This document shows positions 1,299-50,441 of a stretch of 64,000 nucleotides of DNA, one piece after another. A program made the position numbers and the translations under genes. The notes below the pieces were generated by a model that searched no databases, had not been told where the DNA came from, and saw only the letters and a list, made by a program, of their open reading frames with translations. Origin of the DNA: Nereocystis luetkeana (taxonomy: Eukaryota > Sar > Phaeophyceae > Laminariales > Laminariaceae); NCBI GenBank assembly GCA_031213475.1, contig JARUPZ010000030.1:2399871-2463870 (forward strand), written 5' to 3'. Position 1 is the stretch's first letter, and the number at the start of each line of letters is the position of its first letter.

Positions 1299-1412
1299 CT
1301 GCAAACCAGCGTGAACACGCGATGCTGGTCAGCGGCCATCACGGCTCTACTGTTTCTGGGGATCAAGGTGCAGAGCGGTATCATCACCGTCGGGCCAGAT
1401 GACGAGATTTAG
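1299..1412 (+). pseudogene. left-arm exon 1, start lost and TAG before donor
   Basis: Aligns with 50441-50328. The hydrophobic core SAAITALLFLGIKVQS and IITVGP are kept, but the start is CTG and the final codon is TAG (1410-1412) where the right arm has CAG. Confidence 0.75.
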
Positions 1413-1494
1413 GTGCGAGGGTGCAGGTGTATACAGTTCCTGGCAGTTGTTTTACCTGGGGGTACGTTTGAATAAACAAGTGTGAGCTGTCGTA

Positions 1495-1842
1495 GCCGGT
1501 CGCCCCGGTGGTTCAAGTGGTTAACCTCGAACTCTGCTTGTGTTGAATCCTGGGTTTGAGCCCCAGGTGGGTCGGACATTTGACTTTTTTTGGCAAAAAT
1601 AAAAAGATTCAATTGTTGAGAGCGCCTTGCAGCGTGGGTAGGCACAATTCGATGCGAGTCGACGAGGGAAGAAAAGGCTGAAATCTTCTCGCGATAAAAA
1701 TGAAGGCACGTACCGTAGCAGGAAGGGGGGGGGAAGAGCCTGCTACGTATGTGACCCCGGATCTGAGTTACGAGTTGGAAGGAGAGAGAGAAGAAGATGT
1801 GCGAAGATAATGAATGGGATGAGCAAAAATATATATATATAG
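1495..1842 (+). mobile_element. SINE family I, copy 1
   Basis: tRNA-derived SINE. The head has a Pol III box A (TGGTTCAAGTGG, 1509-1520) and a box-B-like GGTTTGAGCCC, then a conserved body and an AT-rich tail. It is more diverged than the other copies. It lies in intron 1 of the left pseudogene, in gene sense. Confidence 0.85.
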
Positions 1843-1849
1843 TGAGGGG

Positions 1850-4060
1850 TTTCAACTTTATGTTTCGATCTACGTAGAGTACACGAACGAAACATGCACA
1901 CGGGAGGAAATTTGAAAGTTTCTTCTTCTTTTAATTTTGTCGCCCTGTCTTTGCCGTTGCTGTATCCTGTATCGCGACTTGAATCTTCTCTGCATACACA
2001 CGAAATATATAATAATAGTACACACGGGACTTAGTAACGTTTGTGGATAACATGCAACACGTGCACGTGTAGCATGCCGTAATACTTCGCCACCGTGAGC
2101 CCTCTCACGACGCCGTAGGATTTTCGGGAGATAGTAGACACAAAAACATTGGTTGGCATCTCTCGCGGGACGTTCGATATTGTCCCGTTATCCGAGCACG
2201 CGATTCGTTGCTAGATAGATGTGGGATCACGCACATTTTACTTTTTTGGTTCGTTCGTGGCACTGCAGTTTACAGACACTGCATCCGAAGGTGTTGCGAC
2301 ACAGCACGCATATTGCGTGGGCGTTTCCACACGTACAGTTAGTTGTACGGTACACTTAAGGCGTGATGCTTGAAAGTGGTCGCGGATGAAATTCGCGGTG
2401 AGAAGAGTCCAAATATTTACAAGGAGAGCTCAGCATTATTAGGTTCATTCTTATCGGAGAGCGTGTTTATCCATCATTTCCAAAGTTTGGAAACAATTAG
2501 TTGGAGATATGTATCAATATACGGAGGCGTTCGGTCACTATTCGTGAAATTCTCCAAAAAAAGTAAAAAAAAACAAGTTCGTCAAATTTCACACCTACCT
2601 TTGGAAAAAAAACATCAGGAAAATACGGGAGATTGAAAAATTGCGCTAAACAAATGTTGAAGATTTGGAAAAAAGCTCTCCGATAATAATTAATAGGCTG
2701 ATCCGCGATACCAGGTATAGACTAATTTTTTTGTTTTTTTTGCGGACCCCACAAAAAGCAACCCACGGCCTTTTTCGATTTCCGCCCATACTTCGATAGC
2801 TCCGTTTTCGACTTATTTCGGCTCAATCAAGACAAAAACTTGGGATCCAAAATCGCGTTTCTTGGCTAAATCTGGCTCGTATTCTGAAAAATTGGCACAC
2901 GAAAAATATTTTGCTTTTCGTGAGATTTTGGCTCCACGCCGAAAACGTCGGCCAGAAAACAAAAAAACGATTAGCTCCGTTCGTTTTTCCCGCTGATTCG
3001 GCTTGGATTTTGAAGGATACAGCCTCGCTCACAAGGGAAATCGCCTCCATCACACGGACAAGAGACATATTATCCTGCGGGAGTTCCATCTCGTTTGTAT
3101 GCGTTACTATTTAGTAGGTTAAGATAAATCGGCACATTTACCAAACTTGGCCCCTAGGGGTAAAACTCGGCTCAACCCCCGAAATATCCGCTCCAACCCC
3201 CCCCCCCCGGTAATCTGCAACACCCCTTCGCAAAAGATTGGCTCCGAAAACCGAAAATAATCTGTTTTTTTCGCCCTTTTTTGGCTAATAATAGGCTTGT
3301 AGAGACTCAGCCTACAGTAGTAGAGCCCATTCTTCGTAGAATCGAAATAGGTGGGGGTGCAGCAAGGCGTAACGCGTAATGCATATATCTGCTCAACGGG
3401 CCTACAGTATTGCGAATCTGTGGGGAAGCAACGCTGAATACATACATACATACATACATACCATATCAATCGCATTGTACTTGCATCTTAATCTGCATGC
3501 CATTGTACCGTACCACTTGTTTTGACGATTGCAAAACAAAAACGTTATGTGCCTGGTACCACAGGTAAGGTATGTCGGAAAGTACGTACAGCAACACGAG
3601 GAGGGGTCTACAGTAGTAGAGCCACACACGAAGCAGGGTGCACCTAAATAAAGAGGAAACACTGTCCGCAGGTATGCCTCCAGCAACAAACGGAAGAAGG
3701 CATCGAACCCCGAATGAATAGTACCAGGTATCATAGTAGTACGTATGCAATACAAATAAATGCTGGGAAGTAAGTATCAAGGGTATGTGCGCTGACTACG
3801 ATGAACACGATGTATGTGCGAAAGGTTTGAGAGAGACGTCTTGGAGGGACTCTTGATTTTGTAACCGGACCTTCGCCTCGACCAAGAGCAACACGTGGCT
3901 CCAATATCCAGCATACATACCATGGGAGGGTATAGATAGATAGATGGATAGTAATGAGAAGGAAGGAGCAAATAAATACAGCAAATAAACAATAGAGTAG
4001 ACAAGCTGAAAGTTGGCACGGAAGGGAGGTAGACTTGGTGCATGGGTTTCCTTTTGTTTC
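1850..4060. other. left intron 1, no gene seen
   Basis: AT-rich, low-complexity sequence with short unsupported ORFs. CCTACAGTAGTAGAGCC occurs twice about 300 bp apart. No homology to the right arm is obvious until 4066. Confidence 0.5.
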
Positions 4061-4799
4061 CGAGTTTTTCTTCTTTCGGGAAAGTTATGAGTGATCCATG
4101 TTGAAGATCATGCTGCACATTGTCGGATGGCAAGAGAAATAATAATCATAATAATAATAGGTGTTTCGTCGTTTTGTCGCACGATAGACACACACATCCT
4201 TCGCGCGTCTACGTTTCTTCTGTTCGCCCCAAAGGTGACCTTCCGTTCCCCTGCGCCGCAAGCAGAACACTTTCCGCGCCGTACGCGTGGGTTTCGTTTT
4301 CGTTTTTGTCCGGCCTAAACGCGACCTTCCCTTCTCACCCTCTGGTACAGCATCCTTCTTCACGCATACATACCAGCATACTTCACGCATGGGATCTTCT
4401 ACGTACTACGTGTACACTGCTGTCAACCTTGCTGCACCAAGCAGTTCAAACAATGGTGCTGGCGGGAGACTAATTAATGTCGAGGCGGCGTGGGTAGGCC
4501 CAACACGCACGCTTCCTCAACTTGGCCCGATAAAGACCTCGTTACGAGTCACTGGAGAAAATGCTGCGACGGCAGGACACGAACGGATCGAGTATCGATC
4601 ATAGGATCGAGTATCGATCACACCCCATGGTACCATTTTCGCGTTTACTTCGATTGAAAATATGTTACTGTTATATTATATGTATATACCAAGTATCATA
4701 CCAGGTATTTATGATTTTCTGAGCGCGCGCCAAAAGAATGCCTACAGCGCATCAGAATCATTCAGTGGCATGTAGACCCATCTCTTACACGTGTACCTG

Positions 4800-5220
4800 G
4801 TAGATACTTTTTTAAAACTTCAGCTGTGACATCGAGGACCTGGTCAAAACTCATATTTGCCAGCTGGGGGATACTTCAATCGCGCGTACTGAGGGTTTTA
4901 GATGGTACCATGCAGAAAATAGTCAGTCCGCATATTCATATATATATGAGGAAGACCAGTCTGAAGCTGTAGAATTCAAGGAGTGGGTGTGACAATTTCT
5001 GGGAAATGAATTTCGAGGTTGCACGTACTCCTCGTAGCTTGTCACAAGTGGGCGTTTTTCTCCGGGGTGTGTTTCATGTGTTCCATACATACTTTGTGTT
5101 GATAATAATGCAAACAGTTTAGTATAAACTGATGTAAATATAATTTGGATACCATTATCATCGCTTCTACTTTCGAGCAGAATGGGGGGTGCGACTAGGA
5201 CCAATTTTTACATCATGATT
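4800..5220 (+). repeat. dispersed repeat, copy 1 (pairs with 46030-46440)
   Basis: Shares CTGAAGCTGTAGAATTCAAG and GAGTGGGTGTG, ATTTCGAGGTTG and ATACCATTATCATC with 46030-46440, in the same orientation although the surrounding arms are inverted. Confidence 0.75.
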
Positions 5221-5487
5221 ATCAATCAGTTCTGATGCCACACAACCTGGAGTGTAAACCAACTAAATAAATGGGCGAAACACCTACTATAATCGGGGCG
5301 TAAAACTCCTGTGGGGGAGGGGGGGCGGAGGGTAGAATAAATATTTTGACTTCGTGACGAGATATACTTTCCACGTCTTGCATCTAATACTCGAATTGTT
5401 CAATTGAAGTAGAACAAGCAAAGCAAAACGCTGACGTTCGGTAAAGTCAAGAATTTCTTGTTGGTGCTTCAATACTAGACTCTACTA

Positions 5488-5603
5488 TTACGGGGGACTA
5501 TAGTTAATAGGACCTATCTATGGTACACAAAAAAAACTACCAGGTATATATTAAACCATTTTTACTAACAAGGTTTGGCCCTATTAACTATGGTCCCCCG
5601 CAA
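5488..5603. mobile_element. TA-flanked MITE, copy 1
   Basis: Palindromic element: starts TTACGGGGGAC and ends GTCCCCCGCAA, with TA (5486-5487) before it. Terminal inverted repeats are about 27 bp with a short AT-rich middle. The right TA is mutated. Confidence 0.85.
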
Positions 5604-5941
5604 TGTCAACAATACTGTTTTTCCCGGGGCGACCCCTGGTACCTGGTGACCATACAACAAGAGCGAGCTTCGTCAACTCAGGACGAATTTGAACACGAGC
5701 AGAGGAGGATTGGGATGCCTTTTATTAATAGTGGTCTTCAGAGAACCGTCTGTTTCGAAATCCGTGTTGCCTTCTTCACGCATGGTGACAGAAGGCGACG
5801 TACGTACCATATAATACGATGCGGGCATCAGAGCGAGGCGCACGATGTACATGTTGCGGATACGTTCCTACACACGATAGATCCCCGGAATTATACCCAG
5901 CAACGCACGCAGGCGCCTTTTTGAAGACTACCTTGATCCCA

Positions 5942-5962
5942 CCCCCCCCCCCCCCCCCCCCC
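5942..5962 (+). repeat. poly(C) tract before left-arm exon 2
   Basis: About 21 C in a row, 16 bp before the acceptor of exon 2, where a polypyrimidine tract belongs. The right arm has only a short C run there. Confidence 0.9.
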
Positions 5963-8450
5963 ACCCCGCCGTGTACAGGTTGCCCTGAATGAAGTCTCCC
6001 CCGGGGACACAATCCGAATCGAGAGCGGCCACTACTGGGAAGACCTCGTCACCAAGGTGAGGGGGAACGTATGCCACAGAGGTATCGGGCATATGTCGAT
6101 AGCATGTCTGACCTTCTTCACTGTGACAGCCACGTTTTGGGGGCAAGCTGCAGTAGTACCGGTACATACATGTAGTGTAGTACTTAGAGTTCGAGCGGAA
6201 CATCGTGGGCAGCGGTGAAAGGGTTCTTACGTTGTTTCGTTGGTCCTCGAACTCGAATCATAGACGGCCGGGACCGTGTGGTATCTACCTCGCCTGTTTG
6301 TGGTTGAGGGACACGTGGGAATTTTAATCAACCGTCGACAGTGTGTGCCGTACCAAACAGAATGTGCTTCGAGATAGATCGCTCACGAGAACGCAAATCA
6401 CATGCATCGCGCAAATCTCGCTTTAAAGCCGATCGTACTTGAGTTGCCGCATGATTTGTTTAGGACTACGTAGCTTCGTGTCTGATGGCGTATCATAGTG
6501 TGGAGTGCTATATATATATGCTGGCAAGGCAAGAGGGATACATATTGGTGCTGTGTGAGATTTCTACTACTGGAGTACCTACGAGGCATGTAACATTTGG
6601 TCTCCACGACTAGGAAGAGATGCAGCTATCGTCGGAGCAGAGAGTCGCGCACAGCCATCCTTTCGTCCTGATTACAATGCTGCTGTGTCTAAATGCCTTG
6701 CTTTCATGTGAGGCTGGGTCTCTCGCGAGGATATTGCTAGGTTATTATTGCCTTCGCACGACGTGAGACCAATCCCAACAGCCGAGCTGCTGTATATTTC
6801 ACATGACTACAATAACACCAACAGCTGTCAGTCGCATATAACCAAGAGTGTGATATACTCGCTTCCGTGTGGGTATGTGTAACAGGTGGACGGTACTGAG
6901 GATGCGAGGATAACCATCGAAGGGGCCGGAGGAGCGAGCGGCAGGGACGGCGTCGTTATACGCGGCACAGACAAAAGCAGTAGGATGTTTCAAGTGATGC
7001 ACGACTATTACACTCTTCAGGTCAGGCTACTACTGTATTGACTAGCTGTATGCTACGATCGGGGTGCGCCCAACTTGTTGATGGGCTCCTTCCTCTAGTA
7101 GAGATATCTAAATAATCAATACGCCATCATCAGTAAGTTACACAAAAGCTGGCCTAGGGAATAAAAAAAGCGCACCTTGATGAACATGGCCATGGACTAC
7201 AGTACAGTAGGTATATGATTTATCGACTAATAATACGGGTAAGTAAACACACATTTCTGTGCGATTGAATCCTAGGCAAAACACCCTTTCAAGAATCAGT
7301 CGACATTCTACGATAGCTGCATTATAATTTAGATGAAAAGGATCCTTTATCATTTGATGAGCCCCGTCAGTCAACCATGTTCAGGCCACAAAGTGCTACA
7401 GTGTCCCGATCTTACCAGGCATCATTTTTACTTTTACAACGCCGATGTCACAGCCATCACATCGTTCATATCCGCCTCAACAATAACGCTGGACTCTGAG
7501 TCGCAAAAAACATAGCCGGGTATATAAATTGTGCGGCAAAATAGCGGGGATCTTCTCCTGTGAACCCGACGCCGAGAACATTGGCTCGCGTAAATTCACC
7601 TTTGCGTGGTATACACATGAACACAGCTAAAATTAGTGATGACGCTTTTCGATAGCCTGATTCGTCCCGCCACCGGGTGCTTATGAGCACTATCTCGAGA
7701 ACGGTCGTAGCGTTCTCGAAACGATATGCGGCCTTGCTAGAAGATACCTGTCAGTAAAACCACACCCGAGATCATATTAAAACAGAAAAAATGCATGTTT
7801 TGCGGCGGACTGAAGGCATGCAGCTCCCGATCTTGAAGAAAGACCCGAAACGTATATGTCGCAGGGTACCCTCTGTCACTGGTAGGTCCAGAAAATCCTC
7901 AGAGCGAATACACTATGACCAACTAAATTGGTCCGCACATTTCTCCGCCCTTGCAGGACTTTACAATCGACGGACTGGTTGTCGACGATAAGGAAGATGC
8001 GAACGAGAATAACTTCATGGACACCTACAGAGGCATTCCCCTCTACGTTACAGGTGAGCGGGTGGGTAGTGTTGTGCACTGCAGAAGGGGGTACGACAGG
8101 ATAAGGTATCCGTGCAAACTACAGTATCATAACTATGTTTTATACACCATACACGTTGTGTAATGCGCATACAGGATATATAATACAGCATATATATGTG
8201 TACCAACTGCGTCTAATCACGAACTACAACGCGTTGTGCATGGTGCCTAATGCGCAGCACATACATGTGCTCAGTTTGCCTCTGAATCGCAAACGACCAT
8301 CGATTGATCGGCTGTTTCTGTGTTGGTTCACATAGCAGTTTCTGTGTTGGCGCACCTATTGTCGGCGAGAATGTGTAACCACCTTGGAAATTCAAAAGCG
8401 CGATGAAGTTAAACGCGTAAACCTATATTTTCCTGTGATGTTCAATCAAG

Positions 8451-8624
8451 ACGGGGACACCCACGTTCCACGTAACCCACCTTTTGATGTTGGTTTCCTG
8501 CTGTGAAACCCAGCGGGTCGCGAACCGTCAAATCGGAGCGGGGGCTACTAGTCCGCCTTGGTCGGGCTGATTGTCCGCAGAATGCTCATTCGAAACGCCG
8601 GTGGCGAATGCATCCGCCTGCGCA
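8451..8624 (+). pseudogene. left-arm exon 5 with two stop codons
   Basis: Aligns base for base with 38282-38109. TGA at 8504-8506 replaces a Cys codon and TAG at 8549-8551 replaces a Lys codon. The splice sites are still present. Confidence 0.8.
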
Positions 8625-11457
8625 GTAAGTGTGCTCAAACTGAAATCTGCGCGATGATATCCAAGGACGGCGTACAGTAGTGTCCATACATAGATAGCAG
8701 TACGGCCTGACTGAGCAGTTCAGAGGTGAAGAGCTCACTACAGTTCAGGTGTTGTTGGGGTTCAAGCGGCACAGCGTAACGCGCAGCGGGCCTTCTAAAA
8801 ATACATATATATGCTACCTCAGGGGTGCACCTACATTACGCTTTTTCTGGGGCTCAAAGCACTTGAGGAGCTCCACGTGCATTATTGCCCCTCGCTCGAA
8901 ACCTGACTTTGAGAAAAAATGGAGGGGAAAGCCGGTGATTGTCTAGACTACGTGCATATGTTTATACAGCGGATATAATAACATGTAACAAACCTTATAA
9001 TAGTTGTGGTCTAACGACATTGGGTACTGTAGCGTTGTTCGGTTAATAAGGGTACTTCCGGCAGTCACAAACGAATTGTCCAAAAATTGCCTCGACGTAT
9101 GAGGTATGCCCTGTCGCAGCGAGCGTCAAAAAGAAACGGCCGACGCGAGCCGCCTGTTGGGTACTACAGGTGTACAGTACCGTGAGAACAAAGAAAATCA
9201 TACCCGACACGTTGCAACCCCTCCCCCCTCACCGACCCCCCGATCCTCCCTTCACTGGTATATGGCGCGCCTGTGCACTGTTGGATCGGTTCGATACGAG
9301 GATATGTTGATGCCGGAAGCAGCAACCTTTGCCTTCTTGCGATTAAAACCTGCTGTGCAGCCCTCGTTGGCGGCACGAACTGCGTGAAACAATTGCGGAG
9401 CAGAGCTGGATCAGCTTGAGGAAGGGTGTTTTGTAACAACGGTTGATATATCGTTGTACTACTACAAAGCAAACGTCATGCATAGTGGACGTCGGCCTTG
9501 AGCTTAGTATACTACAAGATACACGGCACACGAATGCCGAAACTTGAGTCCTACCCTGCCCCACCCCCGCTGCCGTACCCTCGCCGCCTCTGGTGCATCT
9601 TGTACTGTATCACCTCTAGACTTCGTTACGCACGCAGTTATTGACGGGAACACTATCATGAACTGCGGGGTGTACGACTTCGTTTTCGGAGATAAGGAAA
9701 AGAACAAGAACGGAGAGGGAATTTGTGAGTGCTACAGTTGTAAAGCGACGACGATGATTGTGTGCCGCTGTGCTATTGACCTTCACGCCCTCCACCACTA
9801 CGTGCTCCAACGAAATGTGCAGTCTGAGCTACTAATATGATAGCCACAACAGCGCAAGACCCGTACGTACGACGCGTATCGACGGAGAGGATTTATGCGG
9901 GTAGTATAGCGCACGCCTCTCAGTCCGAGCTCCTGTGGGCGCTACAGTACACAGCATACAACAGCGGTAGTATAGACCGGTGTTTACAGTATAATATAAC
10001 TCCTCTCTCAGACCGTGATTAGCACGGAACGCTATAGCACACAACACACGGCAACCATACACGTAGTGCACACCAGCATTCAGCTATGCTTACAGTAGAT
10101 TCGGGGAAAATGCAGCCTACGGAAACGAGTGTCGGGGCCGCTACCATGCTCTATCGAGGCGGTTGCGGCGACAACGGGTTCAAACGGTTGCCGCAGTACA
10201 ACGCATGACGCGTATATCGATAACCGAGCACACGGTAAACGCCGTGGGCTACTGGCAATTGCAATCGAGCCCGCAGATGCAGTACGTGTGGGGCGGGATT
10301 TCGACAGGCTCGAACTCAGCTGCGTTACCACCACGGCAATGGTCTTGAAAGACATACGTGGAACATAATGGTAGGCCTTGCCGATAGAAGTGAGAACGAG
10401 CTGAGTGTACTGTTGTACAGGACGCTTCCCTGCTTTATGGAGCACATACCGCGCGGTTATCTCTTTATGCTAGTATAGAACGAACCTCGCTGGTACAGTT
10501 GCAATGTGTCTTCCTCTCTTGCAACAACCTAACGACGTCACCTCGGGCATTGCTCCCTCCATTTGATTAGACTGCTGGCTTGTGGTTTTCCTTAGACATC
10601 GGAACCTCAAACAAGCAGTGGAAGGATGGGAAAAGCCACCCTGGCGTCCCCGACATGTGCCTCGGGATTGTCGTCAAGAACAACGTGATAGCCACCCACG
10701 TGAGGAGCTACCGTCGCCCCTGCGCACCAGACCACTAAACACTGTGTGGTGTAGGGCGTTTAATTTACGAGACAGCTTTTGGTTTGTCGGCGATTGTACA
10801 TCAGGCACAGCACACCAACGGTATACGATACTATGAGCTTCGAAGGCTTTTGTTGCTCGAGCTGCCGCCAGGGTGGTGAGCTTTGCTGTGATTCCTCGGC
10901 CCCGTAGCAGTTGGATGCCTTCCGAAGACAGGAGTACAACGTGTCCCAACTCCGTTCTCGTTTCCGTTCAACCGCTCCTGTATTGACAATGTTCCTGCAA
11001 CCAGGGAAACGAAGGCGTGGACGCGAAGCAAGGCTGTGTGGAAACACTAACTATGGGTAATAGAATTTCTATGCAGCTCGACGACGACGGAGGAGGTGTG
11101 TACATCCCCTGCGTGTGAAGTTGATCTCTCCTCTTGTTGAAGACATGTACCCAACGCGCTTACGTACCTATCTCCCCAAGCGGTGCTACGACATCGGATG
11201 GAACCGATTGCCCACGTCTTGTATCGCTCGTTGGTCGGGGGATCGCATTCGTATCCTTCTTGATAGCACGAACGGACCTCCATGCACCCCTTTCAGGGAT
11301 CTGCTGTTGCCGCCGCATTCGTTCGGTAGATATTCCACACACTGACGAACCGGTATGTCCATATTATCCCACGCGACGAGAATTACAGGAAGATGGCCAC
11401 TCAGTCATCTGCGGTATTGACACGAGTGTTGCATTTCCCCCCTCGTCGTCGTATATA

Positions 11458-11798
11458 GCCGGTCGCCCCGGTGGTTCAAGTAGTTAACCTCGAATTCTAC
11501 TTGTTTGAGTCCTGGGTTCGAGCCCCAGGTGGGTCGGACTTTGACTTTATTTGCAAAAATAAAAAAAGGATTCAATTGTTGAGAGCGCCTTGCAGCGTGG
11601 GTAGGCACAATTCGATGCGAGTCGACGAGGGAAGAAAAGGCTGAAATCTTCTCGCGATAAAAAATGAAGGCACGTACCGTAGCGGGAAGGGGGGAGAAGA
11701 GCCTGCTATGTGACCCCGGATCTGAGTTACGAGTAGGAAAGAGAGAGAGAAGAAGATGTGCGAAGATAATGAATGGGATGAGAATATATATATATATA
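11458..11798 (+). mobile_element. SINE family I, copy 2, in intron 8 of the left pseudogene
   Basis: Full length with box A TGGTTCAAGTAG and box B GGTTCGAGCCC, ending in a TA-rich tail. The right arm, at about 35265, has the uninterrupted target, so this insertion postdates the duplication or was cleanly absent from the right copy. TATATA flanks may be the target duplication. Confidence 0.9.
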
Positions 11799-12545
11799 TC
11801 GCGGACCCGGCAGCCATCGACAGTCGCGCAGACGGGACCCTAATCCTGAACAACTTTGTCGAGAACACCGAGGGAGCGTGTATACGCGTGGGGGGGAACA
11901 CAGTCGACGGTCGACAGTATGGCAAAAACAACCTGGTGGGCTTATGTTAGGGGAACTTCCCCCCCATTAGGGCATCATCCGAACAGAGCTTGCGTTGGTC
12001 TGCACCCATGTATGTGCTCTACCGCCTTTACCAGCACGTTTTGTTCGTGGCGTTATTATTGTATGGGGACTTGAGAGAGATGACCACGGGAAAAAAGACG
12101 ATTGGGGCATCAACCTAACGACTCGCACGCTGCTAGGTTTGGAGAATCGCTGTTTGTACGGCGGACCCCAATGCACGGATATGTCGCACAACACACGGGT
12201 AGCACAGATCATCGCACCACGCCAGTCCTGTATATGAGCTTACTTTTACTTATAGTGCTATTAATGCTCGGTTCTCCTTCTGAGAGCTTGCATGCCTGTA
12301 GCGTATACGTCTGTAGAGGCCCGATGAACATCGCGCCAAACAAGCACTACTACTGTAGATACATGACACGCGGCTTTCCGAACGGTACACAGCAGCGGTG
12401 ATGAGCTAAAAGCTTGCAGCCGACCGCGTTATCAACAGGGCAAGAGGTGCAAGCACCTTTCAAAGTAGTGCATATCTAGCGCCCAAAAGTACTGCTGTAC
12501 TAACGTCCATCCTACCGACCGACCAATGGACCAACCATTTCACAC

Positions 12546-41900: not shown

Positions 41901-44900
41901 ATTGAGCAATGAGCTATAGGGGTAAACGATCGATTGGTTACCCACCCCAGGGTAATCCTTACGATACCTTCCCCCCCTCTGAACGGCAGTGTTCAAGGTA
42001 AGGCACCCAAGAGGCAGTTACATATTATTACTCCCAATGCTGTCTCTGGAAAAAAATGCCTACACCGGAAATTCAATTAACTCATTGAAGCTGTCATCCA
42101 TATGCAAGTCCGCCTCACAAGCGGTTCTTAGTAGGATGCAGCTCACCCTTCATGCGACTTGCCAGACACCTCACGGCGCTTCGCGCTTGGTGCAAGCAAT
42201 GTCTGCCTGGTCGGTGAAAACCCGACATGCTCCGTCCCGGCATTGTAGGGATGCGAGGGTCTATGGTCATACGACTACGGCCATGCATGAGATCGAGTAC
42301 ATCTCTCCTATCATCGAGTACACCCCCTCTGAACGGCGGAATACTTGGGGCGTCGGTGCCGTTTACAACCGTACGTTGACCTATACCCGCTCTGTTTCAG
42401 TACATACATGGGGTGCCGGGGAGATACGTGTTTAGGGACGCACGCGTAAGCGTGTCTATAAATGGCTTGCTCGAAGTGAGGATCGAACACGTTTCCTCTC
42501 AACGCCGCAAAATAAATGTGAAGGTGCTCTGTACCTACTGAGCTGTAGGAGTAAAACATCGATCGAATGCCCTAGACCAGGGTATTGCTCGTAACACTAC
42601 CGTCCGACCATGTCCAGCGCTTGTTCCAATGATACCATCCGCCTATAAACGGAAAACCTCAATGTGTGTCTGTCTGTGTTGTCTTCTACACATCTAACCG
42701 TTAACTCTACCCAGCACAACCAGTGTCTGTCTGAGCCGATTCTTCAATCCTAGAGAGATAGCAGGTACAAGTTACGTGGTCACAAAGCTATGCCACGGAG
42801 ATATTACATCATTAAGACGTCAGCAGAGTAGACAATGCAATGGCATGTCATCATGGATACGAGAGGCCGGGAGAGACAGAGAAGAACAGAGTGTCGTGAC
42901 CCCGCCGCAGGGAATGTGTCAGACACTATAGAGCGAGGAGCTCAAGAAACGACACCACTACATAAAAATAAACAGAGTAAAACTGAGAACCAAGGAAAAT
43001 AACAGGATAACCGAAAAACAAAAAAGAAAGCATTCCCCAGGTAGCCACAACCGTTTGTCATATAATCCCACACCCTGGGCAGTCTATTTCAATAGTCTAT
43101 TGTGTCTACAAATAGTTCAGGAGGCTGTGCGTTAATTGGATTGGTCTTGACAATTGGTTTTGGCGACTGCCTGTCTATTAATTGGAATCGTCTATACAGT
43201 TGATTTCGGCGATTGCCCATTAATTAATTGAGATTGGCCAGACAAATATTTTCGGCGATTGTCTATGAATTGGAATTGTCTAGGCAATATATTTCGAAGG
43301 CCATCTATTAATTGGAAATGTGCGAGCAACCGATTTCGAGCCTATGAATTGGAATTGTTGAGACAATTGATTGCGGAGACTGGTAATTAATTGGAATTAT
43401 CCAGCAGATCGATTTCGGGTGCTGGCGCAATAAGTGGAATTGTCCGGACAATTGATTTCGGGAGCTATCTCTCAATTGGATTTTTTGTGTCTTAACATTT
43501 GATTTAGGATGCTGCTTTTTAAATGGAATTTTCCAAATAAATGATTTCGGGTGCCGTGAATTAAATGGAATGGTCCAAACGGACTTCGGCGACTGGAAAG
43601 TAGTTGGAACTGTCCGCACAACGCATTTCAGATGCCGCGCAAGAAAACAATTGCTCGAGATAAATAAAATGTCATGGCCGTGTACCGAATAATTGTGCTA
43701 CAATAGACACTCGCCATTGAATTGACTCTACTCGTAATTTGCCACAATAAATCACCTTTCCAATGATTGGGTACAGAGGGACCGATCCGGTTGTAGAGGC
43801 AATACTATTGCGGGGGACCATAGTTAACAGGACCTACGGTATACATAAAAACCTATATGTTTAACAATTTTTACTAACAATATTTGGTCCTGTTAACTAT
43901 GGTCCCCCGTAATAGCATGGTATTTATTGTTGTGGGCTGGCCAAATCAACTGCAGTTCTACAAGTAGTAGTAGCTGCCGGCTTTCAAATAACATGACCCT
44001 CTCTCTTAAACTCGATAATCATGACAATTCCAATTAATGGACGGTCTCTCAAAGCAGTTGCCCCGACAAGTCCAGTTCATGTAAACCACCCGAAAGCAAT
44101 TAATTGTTAGATAGATCAATTCCAATCAATAGACAGCCTGTGAAATCGTTTGTCAGCACAATTTCAATCAATAGGCAGTCTCCGAGATCATTTGTCTGGA
44201 CGATTCTAATTATTTAGAAGCACCAAACACCAATTGTTCAGACCATTCCAATTAGTGGGCAGTCTCTGAAAAAAATCGCCAGGGCAATTTCAATCGATAG
44301 AGTGTCTCCAAGATTATTCATCCGGACAATTCCAATTGTTGGACTGCACCAGATAGACCAATTTATAGACAGTATCCAAGCTCAATCGTCTAAACAACTT
44401 CAATAATTGGAGGACCTTTAACAATCTGGGAGAAGGGATCTTTAGGTTGGTAGGCTGTTCGGGTGTTTTGGTTCCTGTTGGGATCAAGGTACGGGCGAAG
44501 ACCCCACCCAACCCCTGACTCTAACCCTAACCCTAACCCTAACCCTAACCCTGACCCCAAACCGCAGCCAAAACGGGCCAAAACTCGCAATAAACGCGGC
44601 TACGCCGAGTTTGCATCGAACCAGGAAATTTCTCCGACGATTCCGAAGTGCAGACCACGCTACGCATATTTCAAGTAAAAAACATCCCTAAAGATCCCTT
44701 CTCCCAAACTGCTAAACCTACTCATTAATTGCTAGACAGGCTTGGACATCACTTACTTGCCCGAACAATTCCAATTAACAGACAACTTCGTGACTCTGCT
44801 GTAGGGGCAATATAATAAAAAAGGGTTTATTGCCCGAGGTATAAGCAGAAAAGGGCGGGCACTTCAACCTGAACTTTGTGTTTTATGTCCGCACTTCGTA

Positions 44901-47900
44901 GGATTACCGCCTATATTGCCCATATGGGCTCAGATGTAAATCATTAAAAAACGTTTCACGAAACAAAATAATCCGTATGCACTGATATTTTGAAAAGTAC
45001 GGGAAATTGATTCTGTCTGGAGCCTGTCTACCAATAATGGCGTTGTCTGAATATGTCATTTTGGAGAGTTTGTATTACTAGTCGAAATTGTCCGGATAAT
45101 TGAGTTTGTACGCTGTCTATTAATTGGAAATGCCCAGACAATTGATTTAGAAGGCACTGTGCTATTTGAAGTAATCCGGGCAATTGATTTTGGGGTCTGT
45201 CTGTATATTAATTGGAATTGTCGGGGCAATTGATCTGGGAGACTGTCTATTAATCGGAATTGTCGGGACAAGAAAGTTTGGCGGCAATTTATTAATTGGA
45301 ATTGTCCGGGCAACTAATTCGGGGGGGCGTGTGTCAATTGGAGTTGTCGGGACAATTGACTCAGGAGGTGGTCTGCCAATTAATTGGAAGTGGCCGGACA
45401 ATTAATATAGGAGAAGGTCCATCAATTGGAATTGTCCGGACCATTGATCACGGGTTCTACCTATAAAATGGCGCGCTGTCTGGGCAATAGGGCCAGGTAG
45501 GGGTCATCCAATAGAAATTGCAAGGATAATAGAGCTCGACGCCTTTCAATTAACTGGAATTGGGGACCACACTAGACAGCCAATTTGCAAGGGGAAGCTA
45601 TATTAATAGGCACTTGGACTATTGTATATTGTCTACGATGTGATTATAATACAACGACTTCAAGCTCGGAAGGTGGCTTCAATCCGATCTGATTACTCAA
45701 AATAATGATGCCCCCCTTGGAAATGGCTCTACTATTATTGACTCCTAACCCAGGTTTCACCAATCAAATCTAGCCAAGCGGCGAGTTCGTCCAAGTACTT
45801 AGTTGTGTTTCCCCTCATGATAATCTCGATGCACCTATTATCAGATAGATATGTTCAATAATAATGACATAATATCGTATCCTTCGTAGCCGCCAGGTAT
45901 TTTGACATTGATTGTTGGGTGTCCGCCACAACGCCGTACAAATATTTAATGCAACACTTCGTGCGACAATACGGTAGGTTGAGTTTGAGTCTTTGACCGT
46001 GTGCTATTATTGAGCAATATTTAGTTACAAAATTTAATACCAACAACAGCTGTGAGACCGAGAGGGTTTGGTCGAAACTCAAACTTTCATGCTGTGAATG
46101 ATACGTCGATCGCGGGCACTACGTGCTAGAGGGTCTTCTGTGGTCCCATGCAGGGAGTATACAAACCGCACGTGAGACAGACAACATCTATCTGAAGCTG
46201 CAGAACTCAAGGAGTGGGTGTGTCTAGTCTATATTTAGGGGGGAAACAAATTAAATTTCGAGGTTGTATATATATATTTGGATATATATACCATTATCAT
46301 CACTGCTACTACTACTTACTACCGAACAGCAGCATTAAATTATAAGGAAGGATGGATATATATATGTATCTCAATTTTGTAGAGAAGAAAATAACTGGGG
46401 CGTGCGAGGACCAAATTTCACTGACGGGTCAGGTGAAGACATACTACATACATGTCATTACTTATAAAAGTAAAATCGATTATTTCGTCGAAGCCCGCAT
46501 TCCCAAGCCGTGATAAAAAACTCGTGCGCATTGCGGATTATACTTACTTACGAGTTTGGTAAGGCTTAGCACACTCACAACGTTCTTGGAGGACGGGGCA
46601 ATATCGAACGTTCCAAGCTGTACTCGCCGAAGTTGCTTTTTTTATTTTGTCGAGTATCCTCCGACAAACCCTACTACTACAGCAGCACGCGACATGTACG
46701 TGTTACAAGAAGTTGGTAGATTAGAGTTAGTTCCAGACTGTTTTTCTGTTGATCTAAGAATTCACAGCAAGGCACTTTTTTAATTCTGCTCAGCGAGGAC
46801 GCTACTTAAAAAAATACCAGGTATACTATTATTTCTCTTCACATCCATCCGACAATGTGCAGCATGATCTTGAACTTTGATCACTCAGAACTTTCCCGAA
46901 AGAAGAATATATAGTAAGTATTTATAGTAGCATTCGAGAGCCTGCGCTCAACTAACTGTTTGACAATAATATCAGTAATAAGCCGCGAGCCTCACAGCCA
47001 AATAATAATAATAGGGGATTTTGAGCTGCTGCACCGTACGAGCTGGGCCAGCCAAGACCCTGTCGATTCATGAAGTCGGTTATGCAGCGCCCAATTAAAG
47101 TTTTACGCAGTTAGTTGGAAGACACGAAATTTTGACACGGTGTTGTCCATGCACCAATATTGAATGCCGGTCGCCCCGCCCGGTGGTTCAAGTGGTTAAC
47201 CTCGAATTCTACGTGTTTGTTGTGTTTGAGTCCTAGGTTCGAGCCCCAGGTGGGTCGGACATTTGACTTTATTTGCAAAAATAAAAATAAAAAAGGATTC
47301 AATTGTTGAGAGCGCCTTGCAGCGTGGGTAGGCACAATTCGATGCAAGCCGACGAGGGAAGAAAATGCTGAAATCTTCTCGCGATAAAAATGAAGGCACG
47401 TACCGTAGCGGGAATGGGGTAGAAGAGCCTGCTAAGTGACCCCGGATCTGAGTCACGAGTTGGAAGGAGAGAGAGAAGAAGATGTGCGAAGATAATAAAT
47501 GGCATGAATGAGCAAAAATAAAAAATAAAATAAAACGGGACATCTTTCCCAGTCTTTTCTTTCTTGTTTTGTTTCGATCGAGATAATATACGACCGAAAA
47601 AAAAAAAAAACGAAAAGAAACACGACTGAAACTTCTCTGCAAAAAAAGCGGAAAAAAAAAAAAAAACGGAACCAGTTAATTTCGCACGGGCGTCATAACT
47701 ACGGTCTTCGCAACTTCAGATCAAAAGTCGCTAAAGAAAAATGAGCGCTGCATCGCAGAAAATACCATTTTTCTCGGTACACCTGATTAGTCTTGGATAC
47801 TTCTTTTGTGTCATATTATCTTGAGATGGGCAAGGAATTTAATTGGCCTATCTATGAAACAATGAAACTGACGCCGGTCTTCTCCTAGAAAGTAACGTCT

Positions 47901-48194
47901 CCACCAAATTTCGCCTTGATAGGCAACGACAATTTTACTACGGAATTTACTGTAGTAGTGTTAAAACTTTTGTTTTTCGTTTCTTCGCCGATATATCTCA
48001 TCAAGTTTTGAGTCAAATTATGAACATGTATTTCATATTTTTTTAGGTACTTTTGTTTTTTGCACATGGACTGATATGCCAGGGTCAGTGCCTACAAATT
48101 CCAAGTCCAATAGTTCACAGTGGTTCTCGAGACACGACTCTATAATTGATTGTACGCTTCATGGCTTGCCCACTCTGTGTACGCCATCATACCA

Positions 48195-48226
<32 letters not shown>

Positions 48227-49756
48227 TCTTCACATTAAACCGTTCTTTCTACCCGTCGACATCCAGCACAACCAGTGTCCGTGCCGATTCTTCCATCCTA
48301 GAAGAGATACAAGTTCTGTGGTCACAAAGCTACGCCACAGAGATACTACGTTGCCACGTGTGCAGTGTGAACTGCAGTGGGCAATGCAAAGCCATGTCAT
48401 CATACTAGATACGACAGGCACGACATACGCAATCTATGAAATAGTGAAATATGGGAGCACGGTGGTGGTGATGTCCTTACATCATATATATATGCTACAC
48501 CCCACTGGCTACATGTGACGCACTCGGTGTATCTTATACCCATAAAATAAATGCATTGTCAAGCCCCCCACGTACTACTCTTCGTGTTGATCGAGTTTTA
48601 ACCCCTTTAGCACCGCACTCCCATATATATGTGGGGACAAAACACTCAAATTCTAAGTAATTTGCCCCCAAAACGGGACTGGGGTCCTACAAGGGTTAAG
48701 TCGCGCCGTTTACAGGAGGAGGGGTCGACTCGCAGGATCAGATAGAGCGAAAGCAGAGACAACAACAGGCAGGGCGAAAATACGGACACATTCAAATTTC
48801 CTCGCTATCGATGCATACTTCGTACCGACATCAATACATACGTATCTCTGAAAAAAAAACGTTTCTCACTCGCTCAACCAAACGTCTACACGAGAAAATG
48901 ATCCCTAGGTACTACAGGGCAAACGGGACAGCTCACGAGGACTTTGATTGCGCGCCGCGCAATGTATACAAAACCCCTGTTGTTCTGGCAAGCACTGGAG
49001 CAGCGTATGTTGTCATTCCCATTGACAAAAGACAACTTTTATGATAATCCTCGGCAAAACCAACGACACCATCATGAAATCTGAACGGAACGCGCTGGTT
49101 AAGGTCTCCGAGCCACCCTAGTGTCACGGTGCTCACACCTCGCTCGGTGATATGTGGCGTGGGGTGACCAGGCGTCTGATTAAAAACCTTTTTGGCGCTG
49201 GTTTGTAGAAGACAGACGACAAGAAATCTCGACACCTCTCCGATGCCAAGAAATCGACCATTTGTCAGGTTTGTCATCGATCGACAAACCCAACGATTAC
49301 GTCACAAACTCTGAATGAAGCGAGCTGATTAGAGGCAGGCTCCGACCCACACTAGTATCACAGTTCTCACACTTCGGTGGATGATATGTGGCGTGGGTGG
49401 GCCAAGTGTCTACTAAAAACATATTTGGTGGCTAGTGTCTTGAAAACAGACGACAAAAACTCTCGATTCCTCTCCGTTGGCACTAAACAGAACATTTTGA
49501 AAGTTTTGACGAATAATAGCGTATGACGCCGCAGCCAACCTCTCGCCCCCTAGACTACGGAAACCAATGATACCTCCGAGGCCATCATTTTCACTCATTG
49601 GCCTAGCCCGGTACGAAACTCGTTGACCATGGGTTGATTACAAGTCGAGATCGAAGGTCAATCGTCGCGTGGCTGTGGGTGTGCGAGCTGCGAGCTGTGT
49701 TTTTTTTCTTCCTGTTTGTGTGCGGCGTGATTTCGCGTGGTTCCCGTGGTTCCCGT

Positions 49757-49795
<39 letters not shown>

Positions 49796-50441
49796 CCATC
49801 CCATTCATTATCTTCTCACATCTTCTTCTCTCTCTCCTTCCAACTCGTAACTCAGATCCGGGGTCACATAGCAGGCTCTTCTACCCCCTTCCCGCTGCGG
49901 TACGTGCCTTCATTTTTATCGCGAGAAGATTTCAGCCTTTTCTTCCCTCGTCGACTCGCATCGAATTGTGCCTACCCACGCTGCAAGGCGCTCTCAACAA
50001 TTGAATCCCTTTTTTTTATTTTTGCAAATAAAGTCAAAGTCCGACCCTCCTGGGGCTCGAACCCAGGACTCAAACAAGTAGAATTCGAGGTTAACCACTT
50101 GAACCACCGGGGCGACCGTACAGCTATGTTATTGGAAGATGGCTCCCGTCCTTCGCGTTGTTTCAGCCCTATGGTTGGAAGATAGCTGGCGTCAACTGCC
50201 CCGTGTTATTTTACACTTGCCGTGCCGGGCAATTGTTTAACGTCACGGGACAGCTCACGAGGAACTTAATTGTACAGTAGTACTACATACAGCAGTATAC
50301 AGAGTAGTGTTTCGTATAATATCGCACCTGAATCTTGCCGTTGGGCCCGACAGTGATGATCTTGCTCTGCACCTTGATCCCCAGAAAGAGTAGAGCCGTG
50401 GTGGCCGCTGACCAGCATCGCGTGTCCACTCTATTTTGCAT
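29864..50441 (-). CDS. secreted parallel beta-helix protein with C-terminal WSC domain (right-arm copy, intact)
   Basis: Multi-exon gene on the minus strand. Exons in transcript order: 50441-50328, 41477-41400, 39872-39738, 38771-38675, 38282-38109, 37211-37125, 36161-36058, 35721-35631, 35240-35119, 34560-34444, about 31860-31576, 31183-31119, 29996-29864. The phases chain through the first ten exons and the last three. The junction before the linker exon needs one more base of phase, perhaps a tiny exon near 34355. The product begins with a hydrophobic signal-like stretch, then GPNGKIQ-DALNAV and PGDTIRIESG, the usual entry into a right-handed beta-helix. Coils follow with DGTENARITIEG, GEGIYIGTS, VDVKEGC and NTLENCRASG. 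A Pro-rich linker leads into a WSC domain (YFGCF, LTNEACVARC, SCRCS, ECPGDSSTICGG). WSC domains bind wall carbohydrate in fungi and algae; beta-helix folds are typical of polysaccharide lyases and epimerases. I see no DPHD motif of mannuronan C5-epimerases, so the activity is not assigned. No stops occur in any exon. Confidence 0.8.
30385..30825 (+). mobile_element. TIR transposon (family A), interior fragment in the last intron of the right gene
   Basis: Matches the interior of the long copies (CGTTCGTCAACCATGCCCGGCC, TTCCTAGTCGGCC, CTCCGCATTCCCTTGGTCGG). The left-arm intron lacks it. Confidence 0.7.
31119..31183 (-). CDS. exon: WSC domain, middle
   Basis: Encodes ACVARCKENDTNLYAGTYNG and KS. 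Acceptor ATGCAG, donor GTGAGT. The two Cys and the AG-x-YNG segment match the central WSC region. It joins LTNE upstream to give LTNEACVARC. Confidence 0.75.
31576..31860 (-). CDS. exon: Pro-rich linker and start of WSC domain
   Basis: Encodes KLPSPPRSGRTPSPAIP, a Tyr/Gly segment ending YNPLGAC, IPPPTPSP, then AYFGCFEDVFGERTMGF and LTNE, the first third of a WSC domain (pattern YxGCFxD...R...LTNE). The donor is GAG|GTGAAA. The acceptor (AAAAG at about 31861) is approximate. A Pro-rich spacer between a catalytic-type fold and a WSC module fits an extracellular wall protein. Confidence 0.65.
32084..32190. mobile_element. TA-flanked MITE, copy 3
   Basis: 107 bp, TTACGGGAGACC...GGCCCCCCGTAA, TA on both sides. 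It lies in the intron before the linker exon of the right gene, next to the CATG array. Confidence 0.85.
32310..33052. repeat. CATG array with 12-bp period
   Basis: CATG recurs every 12 bp (sometimes 10-11), mostly as CCATGG with GTC or GCC before it. Because CATG is palindromic the pattern reads on both strands. A TTAGGGCTAGGGTTAA segment interrupts it at about 32588. It lies in an intron of the right gene. Confidence 0.9.
34444..34560 (-). CDS. exon 10: last beta-helix coil
   Basis: Encodes VIDNTLENCRASGIKIMVTP, then MTMCGNDVELP and an acidic tail. Acceptor TTTTACAG, donor GTGAGT. It is the best preserved coil between the arms. Confidence 0.8.
35119..35240 (-). CDS. exon 9: beta-helix coils, GC donor
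   Basis: Encodes AIDSRADGTIIKDNFVENTE then GACIRVGG and GRQYGKNNQ. The acceptor is ACAG. The donor reads CAG|GCGAGT, a GC-AG intron; the left arm has CTG|GTGGGC at the same point. The frame runs on into exon 10 in phase 0. Confidence 0.75.
35631..35721 (-). CDS. exon 8: beta-helix coil with VDVKEGC
   Basis: Encodes GNEGVDVKEGCVETMIMGNR and an acidic DDDGG end. The VDVKEG turn recurs in secreted beta-helix proteins. Acceptor ATCAG, donor GTGTGT, phase 1 out. Confidence 0.75.
36058..36161 (-). CDS. exon 7: beta-helix coil
   Basis: Encodes YIGTSSKQWDDG, then PDMCLGIVVKNNVIATH. Acceptor CTTAG, donor GTGAGG, ends in phase 0. It is 104 bp in both arms. Confidence 0.8.
37125..37211 (-). CDS. exon 6: beta-helix coil
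   Basis: Encodes VIDGNTIMNCGVYDFVFGDK and KNGEGI. The next exon completes GEGIYIGTS, a motif common in beta-helix families. Acceptor CGCAG, donor GTGAGT. The flanking intron is almost identical to the left arm. Confidence 0.8.
38109..38282 (-). CDS. exon 5: beta-helix coils with Cys-rich loop
   Basis: Encodes DGDTHAPRNPPFDVGFLLCN, then SALDGLIVRGMLIQNAGGEC. Acceptor CAAG, donor GTAAGT. It is open throughout; the left-arm exon has two stops (the TGC of the LLC motif became TGA, and AAG of YKS became TAG). Confidence 0.8.
38675..38771 (-). CDS. exon 4: beta-helix coil
   Basis: Encodes DFTIDGLVIDDKEDANENNF and on to IPLYVT. It follows YYTLQ of exon 3 without a gap, giving a natural TLQDFTIDG coil. 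Acceptor TTGCAG, donor GTGAGC; ends in phase 1. Confidence 0.8.
39738..39872 (-). CDS. exon 3: beta-helix coils
   Basis: Encodes RDGTENARITIEGAGGASGR and continues to KHDYYTLQ, 45 codons in phase 0. Acceptor ACAG, donor GTCAGG. The Gly-rich turn after TIEG resembles the usual second coil of pectin-lyase-like folds. Confidence 0.8.
40432..40785 (+). CDS. hypothetical ORF with signal peptide, antisense in intron 2 of the right gene
   Basis: A 117-codon ORF opens with MRR and the hydrophobic run CSLVLCVFLVCCLAPDL, a convincing secretory signal, followed by a polar, aromatic-rich region. The left-arm intron is about 700 bp shorter and lacks it, so the segment was inserted or lost after duplication. 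I do not recognise the protein. It may be the first exon of a captured gene; frames past about 40640 are ambiguous. Confidence 0.3.
   Translation: MRRCSLVLCVFLVCCLAPDLSNTQEMGRSMGREVDFSVPYNSFKTTYFDGTGNFPGALSFVRVGNKTRRSNGQTTWPRKSQNKSSERPLSGHPQRSTCGVFIFYGNGNSQDIRGFEK
41400..41477 (-). CDS. exon 2: beta-helix entry strand
   Basis: Encodes DALNAVLPGDTIRIESGDYW and a few more residues, a classic first coil of right-handed beta-helix proteins. Acceptor TACAG, donor GTGAGC. It is 78 bp, the same as the left-arm exon at 5979-6056. Confidence 0.8.
42690..43065 (+). mobile_element. TIR transposon (family A), old copy
   Basis: Recognisable but diverged: AACCGTTAACTCTACCCAGCAC, GTCACAAAGCTATGCCACGGAG, ACAGAGTAAAACTGAGAACC, then CCAGGTAGCC. 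It lies in intron 1 of the right gene. Confidence 0.6.
43808..43912. mobile_element. TA-flanked MITE, copy 4
   Basis: 105 bp, TTGCGGGGGACC...GGTCCCCCGTAA, flanked by TA. It is inserted in the degenerate AATTGGAATTG repeat field in intron 1 of the right gene. Confidence 0.9.
44402..44735. repeat. inverted repeat around a CCCTAA core
   Basis: GGGAGAAGGGATCTTTAGG (44426 onward) is mirrored by CCTAAAGATCCCTTCTCCC (about 44691-44709). The 230-bp loop carries the CCCTAA run. Confidence 0.8.
44521..44552 (+). repeat. interstitial telomere-like (CCCTAA)5
   Basis: Five exact CTAACC units in a row. CCCTAA/TTAGGG is the telomere repeat of many eukaryotes, brown algae among them. Confidence 0.9.
46030..46440 (+). 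repeat. dispersed repeat, copy 2
   Basis: Direct copy of 4800-5220, with an extra TA-rich insertion near 46340-46370. It lies in intron 1 of the right gene. Confidence 0.75.
47166..47536 (+). mobile_element. SINE family I, copy 3
   Basis: Full-length copy with a CG duplication before box A. It carries box B GGTTCGAGCCC and ends in (AAAAATAAA)-type sequence. It lies in intron 1 of the right gene, antisense to it. Confidence 0.9.
48201..48449 (+). mobile_element. TIR transposon (family A), 5' fragment preceded by (GT)n
   Basis: A (GT)13 run leads into GTGTTCTTCACATTAAACC and about 225 bp nearly identical to 50774-51000, then stops. It lies in intron 1 of the right gene. Confidence 0.8.
49050..49515 (+). 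repeat. tandem duplication, two units of about 235 bp
   Basis: GGTGATATGTGGCGTGGG, ACAGACGACAA and CTCTCGA/CCTCTCCG-type segments recur at a spacing of about 235-240 bp. Confidence 0.8.
49759..50119 (-). mobile_element. SINE family I, copy 4
   Basis: Full-length minus-strand copy with a 37-nt poly(A) (read as T at 49759-49795). It lies in intron 1 of the right gene, in gene sense, at roughly the mirror position of copy 1; the flanks do not clearly match. Confidence 0.9.
50328..50441 (-). CDS. exon 1: signal-peptide-like N-terminus
   Basis: The ATG at 50441-50439 opens a short polar segment, then the hydrophobic run SAATTALLFLGI and the beta-helix entry IITVGPNGKIQ. The exon ends CAG before the donor GTGCGA. 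I chose this ATG because the left arm shows CTG at the same place and a signal-length N-terminus results; an in-frame ATG at 50624 is the alternative. Secretion is inferred from hydrophobicity only. Confidence 0.7.

Follow-up and report, generated by a model that had tools for sequence, protein, structure and literature searches.

Does the window analysed here, a stretch of 64,000 nucleotides of Nereocystis luetkeana DNA, carry one gene twice in opposite orientation, and what has become of the two copies? According to a preliminary description, it contains a very large interrupted inverted duplication, both arms of which hold a complete gene of 13 exons. When the window was compared with itself (self-BLAST and colinear chain), we found one colinear inverted homology, which joins arm A (+, ~596-17910) to arm B (-, ~50901-27998). 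With the blocks of SINE and MITE counted in, the chain involves 13 blocks and 12,452 aligned columns; its core has an E-value of 0, and the outermost paired blocks are A 596-695/B 50901-50799 and A 17794-17910/B 28110-27998. In direct orientation, self-BLAST found nothing in common between the arms except a SINE, a MITE-like element and a single match of 32 bp. The spacer of about 10.1 kb agrees with the 10 kb originally given, but the arms (~17.3 and ~22.9 kb) are longer than the suggested 16 and 22 kb.

596..17910, + strand: arm A from the colinear chain; its left end is close to the window edge and uncertain
27998..50901, - strand: arm B from the colinear chain
17911..27997, no strand: spacer between the chain ends, ~10.1 kb
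4068..4144, + strand: the only intron-1 patch, mobile elements aside, that A and B share; 88.9% identity to its mirror 46907-46827

Common to both arms are the 13 exons, introns 2-12 and, beyond the gene, ~1.9 kb of 3' flank. For all introns and both flanks, the best local alignment between A and B scored above every shuffle (35-542 vs. shuffle maxima of 11-18; 20 shuffles per intron or flank, 5 for intron 1). This test does not establish homology of intron 1, because the best alignment there is a SINE-SINE match; outside mobile elements this intron contains the single two-arm patch listed above (81 columns), which is located about 15 bp from the pairing first proposed for it. Of the mirrored intron positions, 9638 corresponds to 37211 as claimed. 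The region 10130-10330 is also mirrored, but 10330 pairs with 36524 (not 36540) and 10130 with 36727 (not 36690). Self-BLAST, colinear chain and the shuffle scores of introns and flank rule out chance similarity as well as the exon-sized-only matches that had been named beforehand as counter-evidence, and the large interrupted inverted duplication is borne out with introns 2-12 and the 3' flank included. Colinear homology of this kind, in opposite orientation and comprising introns and flank, characterizes an inverted (tail-to-tail) segmental gene duplication. It fades at ~596/50901 on the outer and at ~17910/27998 on the inner side; the inner junction lies within a spacer holding mobile DNA, the outer flank of arm B is repeat-rich and the outer end of arm A is at the window edge.

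Automatic exon chaining yielded 29 pieces, many of which are not real exons, and the final exons were placed manually according to phase and splice sites. Their order and phase agree across the arms for all 13 exons, as had been stated for the order. Equal length applies to 12 of the 13 (exon 10 put in register), the exception being exon 11 with 180 nt in A vs. 192 nt in B. In arm B the exons are as follows:

50328..50441, - strand: exon 1, exon model; contains the start codon and a probable signal peptide
41400..41477, - strand: exon 2, exon model
39738..39872, - strand: exon 3, exon model
38675..38771, - strand: exon 4, exon model
38109..38201, - strand: exon 5, exon model
37125..37229, - strand: exon 6, exon model; identical in A and B
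36058..36161, - strand: exon 7, exon model
35631..35721, - strand: exon 8, exon model
35119..35240, - strand: exon 9, exon model; followed by a GC donor
34444..34560, - strand: exon 10, exon model
31576..31767, - strand: exon 11, exon model; WSC domain begins
31119..31183, - strand: exon 12, exon model; WSC domain
29864..29996, - strand: exon 13, exon model; WSC domain, stop codon

These exons form an unbroken frame of 481 codons that ends on TAG and encodes a 481-amino acid protein with a probable signal peptide, a right-handed beta-helix and a WSC domain. The WSC profile (PF01822) is matched over its full length (1-82) with an E-value of 1.2e-14 and 54.7 bits (cut-off 27.8), and four Kremen sequences match the protein at E 4e-4 to 6e-4. 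Beta_helix (PF13229) reaches E 1e-8 and 35.4 bits against a curated cut-off of 25.9, and Pfam NosD (PF05048) likewise attains its cut-off (23.6 bits); the sole NCBIfam match is also NosD, far below its cut-off. No mannuronan C5-epimerase model is among the Pfam and NCBIfam matches, libraries that may not contain a model of the algal enzyme. A literature search for a WSC domain together with a parallel beta-helix found no paper. Arm B is likely a working gene, and its product presumably acts on or binds cell-wall polysaccharide outside the cell. When viral contigs were scanned once for relatives, two pattern matches and no confirmed locus were obtained.

In arm A the corresponding exons are:

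1299..1412, + strand: exon 1; ATG missing at 1299-1301, in-frame TAG at 1410-1412
5979..6056, + strand: exon 2, exon model
6886..7020, + strand: exon 3, exon model
7957..8053, + strand: exon 4, exon model
8532..8624, + strand: exon 5; acceptor dinucleotide 8530-8531 not AG, in-frame TAG at 8549-8551
9620..9724, + strand: exon 6, exon model
10596..10699, + strand: exon 7, exon model
11005..11095, + strand: exon 8, exon model
11814..11935, + strand: exon 9, exon model
12546..12662, + strand: exon 10; start placed to match the register of B, acceptor 12544-12545 not AG
14474..14653, + strand: exon 11; in-frame indels relative to B
14992..15056, + strand: exon 12; in-frame TAG at 15010-15012
15870..16002, + strand: exon 13, exon model

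It can be seen that this copy carries five firm lesions, namely three in-frame TAG codons (exons 1, 5 and 12) and two lost splice acceptors (exons 5 and 10). A sixth lesion, the missing ATG where B starts, is only presumptive because an in-frame ATG exists upstream of exon 1. Thus, 13 exons are found in each arm, but the gene is whole in B only, and the idea of a whole gene in both arms was rejected on account of the stops and lost acceptors. Since arm A keeps its 12 introns and its reading frame is disrupted, it is, as judged from the sequence, an unprocessed (duplicated) pseudogene. Over 1431 exon columns we counted no frameshift, whereas 15.2 would be expected if both copies were neutral (~7.6 for A alone), an expectation derived from the indels of introns 3-9. 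Arm A therefore probably lost its function late. The overall dN/dS of about 0.6 between the arms would also fit an arm A that was neutral since early on.

Outside the exons, identity between the arms is uneven. Three tracts of 94-99% surround exons 4-6 within a plateau of about 80%, and towards both ends identity declines to about 70%. These identities were computed with strict gaps; under cheap gaps, shuffled controls reached 77-83%. The heterogeneity (47 blocks of 200 columns, chi2 346, df 46) was reached in none of 2000 permutations, and the uneven pattern was reproduced with three further alignments. A hidden Markov model (HMM) delimited the tracts:

7888..8062, + strand: high-identity tract 1, 98.7% of 78 non-exon columns (69 of them preceding exon 4); mirror 38840-38666
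8445..8911, + strand: high-identity tract 2, 96.2% of 366 non-exon columns; mirror 38288-37830
9172..9927, + strand: high-identity tract 3, 93.9% of 553 non-exon columns; mirror 37582-36918

With exons counted, the longest identical run within 6886-12662 comprises 130 columns (9613-9742), compared with a maximum of 85 in 2000 permutations; the longest intron-only run (66) is less extreme and was reached in 6 of 2000. The exons follow a similar trend, with a dS of 0.137 for exons 3-9 vs. 0.26 for exons 1-2 and 0.32 for exons 10-13 (synonymous changes at 21/171 vs. 39/158 sites, Fisher p 0.004, with counts rounded and exon groups set by hand). Single exons depart from it, since dS is 0.26 and 0.24 for the core exons 3 and 9 and 0.085 for exon 10 outside the core. 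Discrete tracts of high identity that cross exon/intron borders within otherwise diverged copies are the mark of interlocus gene conversion, the borders having been picked on the same data.

Mobile elements were considered separately. Among 20 open reading frames from spacer, flanks and arms, Pfam matched two, both within a copia-type remnant, which is the only spacer element that can be named. One further insertion is confined to arm A.

21287..22842, + strand: Ty1/copia-type remnant in the spacer; PF00098 (CCHC knuckle) E 2.1e-5, PF13976 (gag_pre-integrase) E 5.1e-8
11457..11801, + strand: tRNA-like SINE in intron 8, arm A only; empty site in B at ~35252-35260

Both 3' flanks contain mirrored YLDD frames (17138-17314 on the minus and 28507-28776 on the plus strand). 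The relic described there as gypsy maps exactly (17279/17290 to 28572/28561), but neither YLDD frame matched any Pfam domain at E up to 1, the reverse transcriptase and integrase of Ty3/gypsy included, and gypsy was dropped as a tested label; by eye, a resemblance to gypsy reverse transcriptase is plausible. The arm A frame 17239-17535, which is not that of the YLDD motif, had no Pfam match either. The mirrored SINEs near exon 1 (1494-1829/49768-50118) are 96.3% identical to each other, and 97.0% and 98.8% identical to a copy at 60509. Each being closer to that copy, they are probably independent insertions, and we rejected them as part of the duplication. The same holds for the MITE-like copies at 5470 and 43803 (86.5% mutual identity vs. 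91.7% between 5470 and a spacer copy), so that the mirrored SINE and MITE-like matches of intron 1 probably arose independently. A pair of 243-bp sequences (48207-48449/50763-51005) is 100% identical, and a minisatellite was reported in arm B, not in arm A. A tRNA scan led nowhere.

Instead of conversion, the mosaic might reflect purifying selection that acts within introns 3-6 on regulatory elements, splicing elements or an intronic RNA; duplication and pseudogene would remain unchanged. Every one of the three tracts includes an exon, and identity is likewise high (93% and 97%) over the 60 bp preceding exons 8 and 10, a pattern that splice-related constraint could mimic. However, exon 6 has no synonymous change over ~21 sites, tract 3 begins ~450 bp before this exon, exons 3, 7, 9 and 11-13 lack a halo of high identity and Rfam gave no match in 7400-13500 at E<=1. 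Moreover, constraint on arm A is hard to justify because this arm is a pseudogene, and we regard selection as an unlikely cause. Far less credible is that the pair serves as a source of hairpin RNA and that the dead arm is for this reason kept similar, in part, to the live gene. Transcription continuing from B over the spacer into A would then give a fold-back RNA, and the 94-99% tracts (exons 4-6, with the 130-column run) would feed small RNAs tuning arm B or its relatives; if this were true, the mosaic would be a selected duplex and not a by-product of conversion.

An assembly artefact, in which a pair of haplotypes or a chimera was joined head on, is highly improbable. The identical 243-bp pair is a local oddity in its favor, but the end introns differ by ~30% or more, far beyond allelic divergence, and the one-arm SINE with its empty site, the B-only minisatellite and the many indels also exceed allelic differences; thus, the sequence does not look like the misassembled haplotype that had been raised as a caveat. 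It is unlikely that two old paralogues formed a direct tandem pair that was later inverted. The orientation at birth is unreadable from the sequence and the junctions are invisible, but colinearity of the arms extends without internal breakpoint through the entire gene and its 3' flank, and no sign of an inversion was seen. Arm A might also live on via an alternative transcript that skips its lesions, for which the frameshift-free exons and the upstream in-frame ATG could be quoted. We consider this very unlikely, as three TAGs and two lost acceptors are spread over exons 1, 5, 10 and 12, and TAG is the terminal stop of the arm B frame and therefore not read as sense there.

Compared with known inverted pairs, the hsp16-48 genes of Caenorhabditis are much shorter than the gene described here, and the arms of Y/W chromosome palindromes are nearly identical over their full length, whereas here only patches are. 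In these palindromes, as probably at our locus, inverted copies exchange sequence by arm-to-arm conversion (PMC3403216). Adjacent inverted Caenorhabditis paralogues, such as the hsp16-48 modules, are likewise described as undergoing gene conversion with diverged flanks, and tracts of other pairs enter introns; the hsp16-48 spacer measures 416 bp vs. ~10.1 kb here (PMC3966223). The combination of inverted duplicates, conversion and decay of one copy is already documented for GSTT2/GSTT2B of African great apes, a tandem inverted gene duplication whose silenced copy has a mutated splice site as well as a premature stop (PMC3375281). Both systems consist of adjacent inverted duplicates with one disabled copy and, probably also in our case, inter-copy conversion, but the dying human duplicates are 99.4% alike (PMC3375281), whereas the Nereocystis arms are much older, ~70% alike outside the presumably converted middle and ~10 kb apart.

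An old tail-to-tail duplication with partial re-homogenization by gene conversion and one dying copy is the best explanation and, in our judgment, quite a probable one. A segment comprising ~1.9 kb of 3' flank and the 13-exon gene, whose beta-helix/WSC product is probably secreted, would have been copied in inverted, tail-to-tail orientation, and both copies would then have diverged and taken up mobile elements. Arm-to-arm conversion may have overwritten introns 3-9 repeatedly, with the latest events in the vicinity of exons 4-6, and introns 10-12 as well as both ends would have retained their older divergence. Arm A would have kept an open frame for much of that time before point lesions inactivated it. 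The locus would thus present the ageing of an inverted gene pair in one place, with diverged ends, a re-copied middle and one copy failing without frameshifts. It is a warning that gene predictors could call arm A a gene. It also cautions against dating duplicates by coding sequence alone, because dS of exons 3-9 is under half that of exons 10-13.

Matching the window against its own opposite strand, we found a single colinear inverted chain, which begins with the pair 596-695/50901-50799 and ends with 17794-17910/28110-27998. Taken intron by intron and for the two flanks, the top local alignments between the arms scored 35 to 542, whereas the shuffled maxima were 11 to 18 (20 shuffles per intron or flank, 5 for intron 1). 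These data bear out the interrupted inverted duplication proposed in the preliminary description. Its spacer of about 10 kb is also confirmed (about 10.1 kb), but its arms of 16 and 22 kb were too short (about 17.3 and 22.9 kb). On the direct strand, similarity between the arms was limited to mobile elements and a single match of 32 bp.

596-17910, plus strand: arm A, first gene copy
17138-17314, minus strand: YLDD frame, 3' flank of arm A
17911-27997: spacer, containing a copia remnant
27998-50901, minus strand: arm B, second gene copy, tail-to-tail with the first
28507-28776, plus strand: YLDD frame, 3' flank of arm B

Intron 1 (4.6 kb in arm A, 8.9 kb in arm B) differs in kind from the other introns, its top-scoring match being a SINE. 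Mobile elements aside, the patch already suspected there was recovered as the one common stretch (4068-4144/46907-46827; 81 columns, 88.9%). Arm B intron 1 also contains a short CCCTAA-like telomeric-type array (44513-44557).

The YLDD frames are mirrored in both 3' flanks, with 17290 pairing exactly with 28561 as originally described. Since they are common to both arms, these frames, whatever their nature, are older than the duplication. By eye, the frame at 28507-28776 is reminiscent of a segment of a gypsy-type reverse transcriptase. Neither of the two frames matched Pfam at E up to 1, and the label "gypsy relic" was not retained as a tested one. Intron 8 carries a tRNA-like SINE (about 340 bp) in arm A alone, arm B having the empty site, and therefore its insertion most likely followed the duplication. 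Owing to an (AT)n stretch, the insertion site shows no clean target duplication.

The SINE family, which has a tRNA-like B-box, numbers seven copies of about 340 bp that are 93.6-99.4% alike (1494-1829, 11457-11784, 47179-47535, 49768-50118, 52426-52775, 52994-53342, 60509-60860); those at 50-61 kb sit amid another repeat family. A palindromic MITE-like element (about 117 bp) occurs four times (5470-5604, 26555-26677, 43803-43929, 56159-56269), the copies being 82.6-91.7% alike. A 243-bp direct repeat, 100% identical, lies on either side of arm B exon 1 (48207-48449, 50763-51005), and a related match from its second copy runs on to about 51239; a recent insertion, a duplication or a local assembly issue are the alternatives. 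Arm B intron 10 carries a minisatellite with a 93-bp unit (32310-32575), and Tandem Repeats Finder reported no array in arm A at a score threshold of 50. At 62976-63269 there are CTG/TGC-rich tandem arrays, one with a 63-bp unit, as well as long low-complexity open frames, and the ORFs tried had no Pfam match.

Exons were assigned manually, with conserved phase and splice sites as the guide; an automatic exon chain was dropped as too permissive. Arm B comprises 13 exons with a 481-codon open frame ending in TAG. Its intron 9 starts with GC (donor 35117-35118), where arm A has GT; GC donors are rare but known. The encoded protein matched WSC (PF01822, E 1.2e-14) and right-handed beta-helix (PF13229, E 1e-8) models, with NosD (PF05048) just at the cut-off, and its WSC part weakly matched Kremen sequences in the PDB. 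The N-terminus, read by eye, looks like a signal peptide, and we think that the product is a putative cell-wall polysaccharide protein. The review PMC8307928 lists WSC proteins in its account of the cell-wall proteins of brown algae, and also mentions large mannuronan C5-epimerase families. Pfam and NCBIfam profile searches, however, gave no epimerase match for the arm B protein, and the brown-alga host is presumed.

The preliminary description assigned a whole 13-exon gene to each arm, which does not hold for arm A. Exon-by-exon alignment to arm B revealed TAG codons in frame within exons 1, 5 and 12. The acceptors preceding exons 5 and 10 are not AG, and the position matching the arm B start lacks an ATG. 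Because an in-frame ATG is present upstream, the start loss is presumptive. With these lesions and its introns kept, arm A is a predicted unprocessed pseudogene. There were no exon frameshifts between the arms in 1431 aligned columns, the 8- and 7-nt exon gaps in these columns being read as the one 15-nt in-frame gap that the codon alignment shows in exon 11. Introns 3-9 contained 68 indels in 4326 columns (46 not multiples of three), from which about 15 exon frameshifts would be expected if both copies had always been neutral, and about half for arm A alone. This shortfall suggests that arm A was probably selected, or held in frame by conversion, during much of its life. The overall dN/dS of about 0.6 (0.127/0.213) points another way: it speaks against a very recent death of arm A, and a longer neutral phase would fit.

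Non-exon identity is a mosaic, with three high-identity tracts around exons 4, 5 and 6.

Non-exon identity between the arms (three-state HMM; 9446 aligned columns, intron 2 to 3' flank; arm A coordinates, plus strand). Exact tract identities are post hoc, since borders were picked from the same data.
6057-7427: 72.5%
7428-7887: 82.1%
7888-8062, tract 1: 98.7%; 69 columns before exon 4, 9 after
Between tracts 1 and 2: 82.4%
8445-8911, tract 2: 96.2%; 87 columns before exon 5, 279 after
Between tracts 2 and 3: 80.0%
9172-9927, tract 3: 93.9%; 350 columns before exon 6, 203 after
9928-13501: 79.3%
13502-17629: 69.9%

A uniform rate was rejected (chi2 346, df 46; reached by 0 of 2000 permutations), and heterogeneity held on three further alignments (chi2 333, 431 and 790; the highest values among 1000 permutations were 72, 84 and 79). 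Identity at the low ends varied with the aligner (59-74% and 62-72%). For 9928-13501, the two blastn alignments among these gave 2884 and 3000 columns vs 2650 in the HMM alignment, and they probably include some off-diagonal SINE columns. The longest identical run within 6886-12662, exons included, was 130 columns (permutation maximum 85, n=2000); for introns alone it was 66 columns, reached in 6 of 2000 permutations. Grouped synonymous changes parallel this pattern, with dS of 0.137 for exons 3-9, 0.26 for exons 1-2 and 0.32 for exons 10-13 (Fisher p 0.004 on rounded counts); single-exon values are noisier (exon 3, 0.26; exon 9, 0.24; exon 10, 0.085).

Gene conversion typically leaves discrete tracts that run across the borders of exons and introns. 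The main rival is that constraint on the introns produced the mosaic, and it draws on the position of exons 4, 5 and 6 inside the tracts and on short stretches preceding exons 8 and 10 that are also high in identity. One scan of viral contigs gave no confirmed relative. Gene conversion between inverted neighbours is documented in PMC3966223, with tracts in introns for other pairs. A further documented case is GSTT2 (PMC3375281), an inverted pair whose silenced copy has a splice-site and a nonsense lesion. Taken together, we consider it quite probable, our confidence being slightly lowered because tract 1 is based on few columns and dS varies from exon to exon, that the locus represents an old inverted duplication, its middle partly overwritten by gene conversion and one copy dying.
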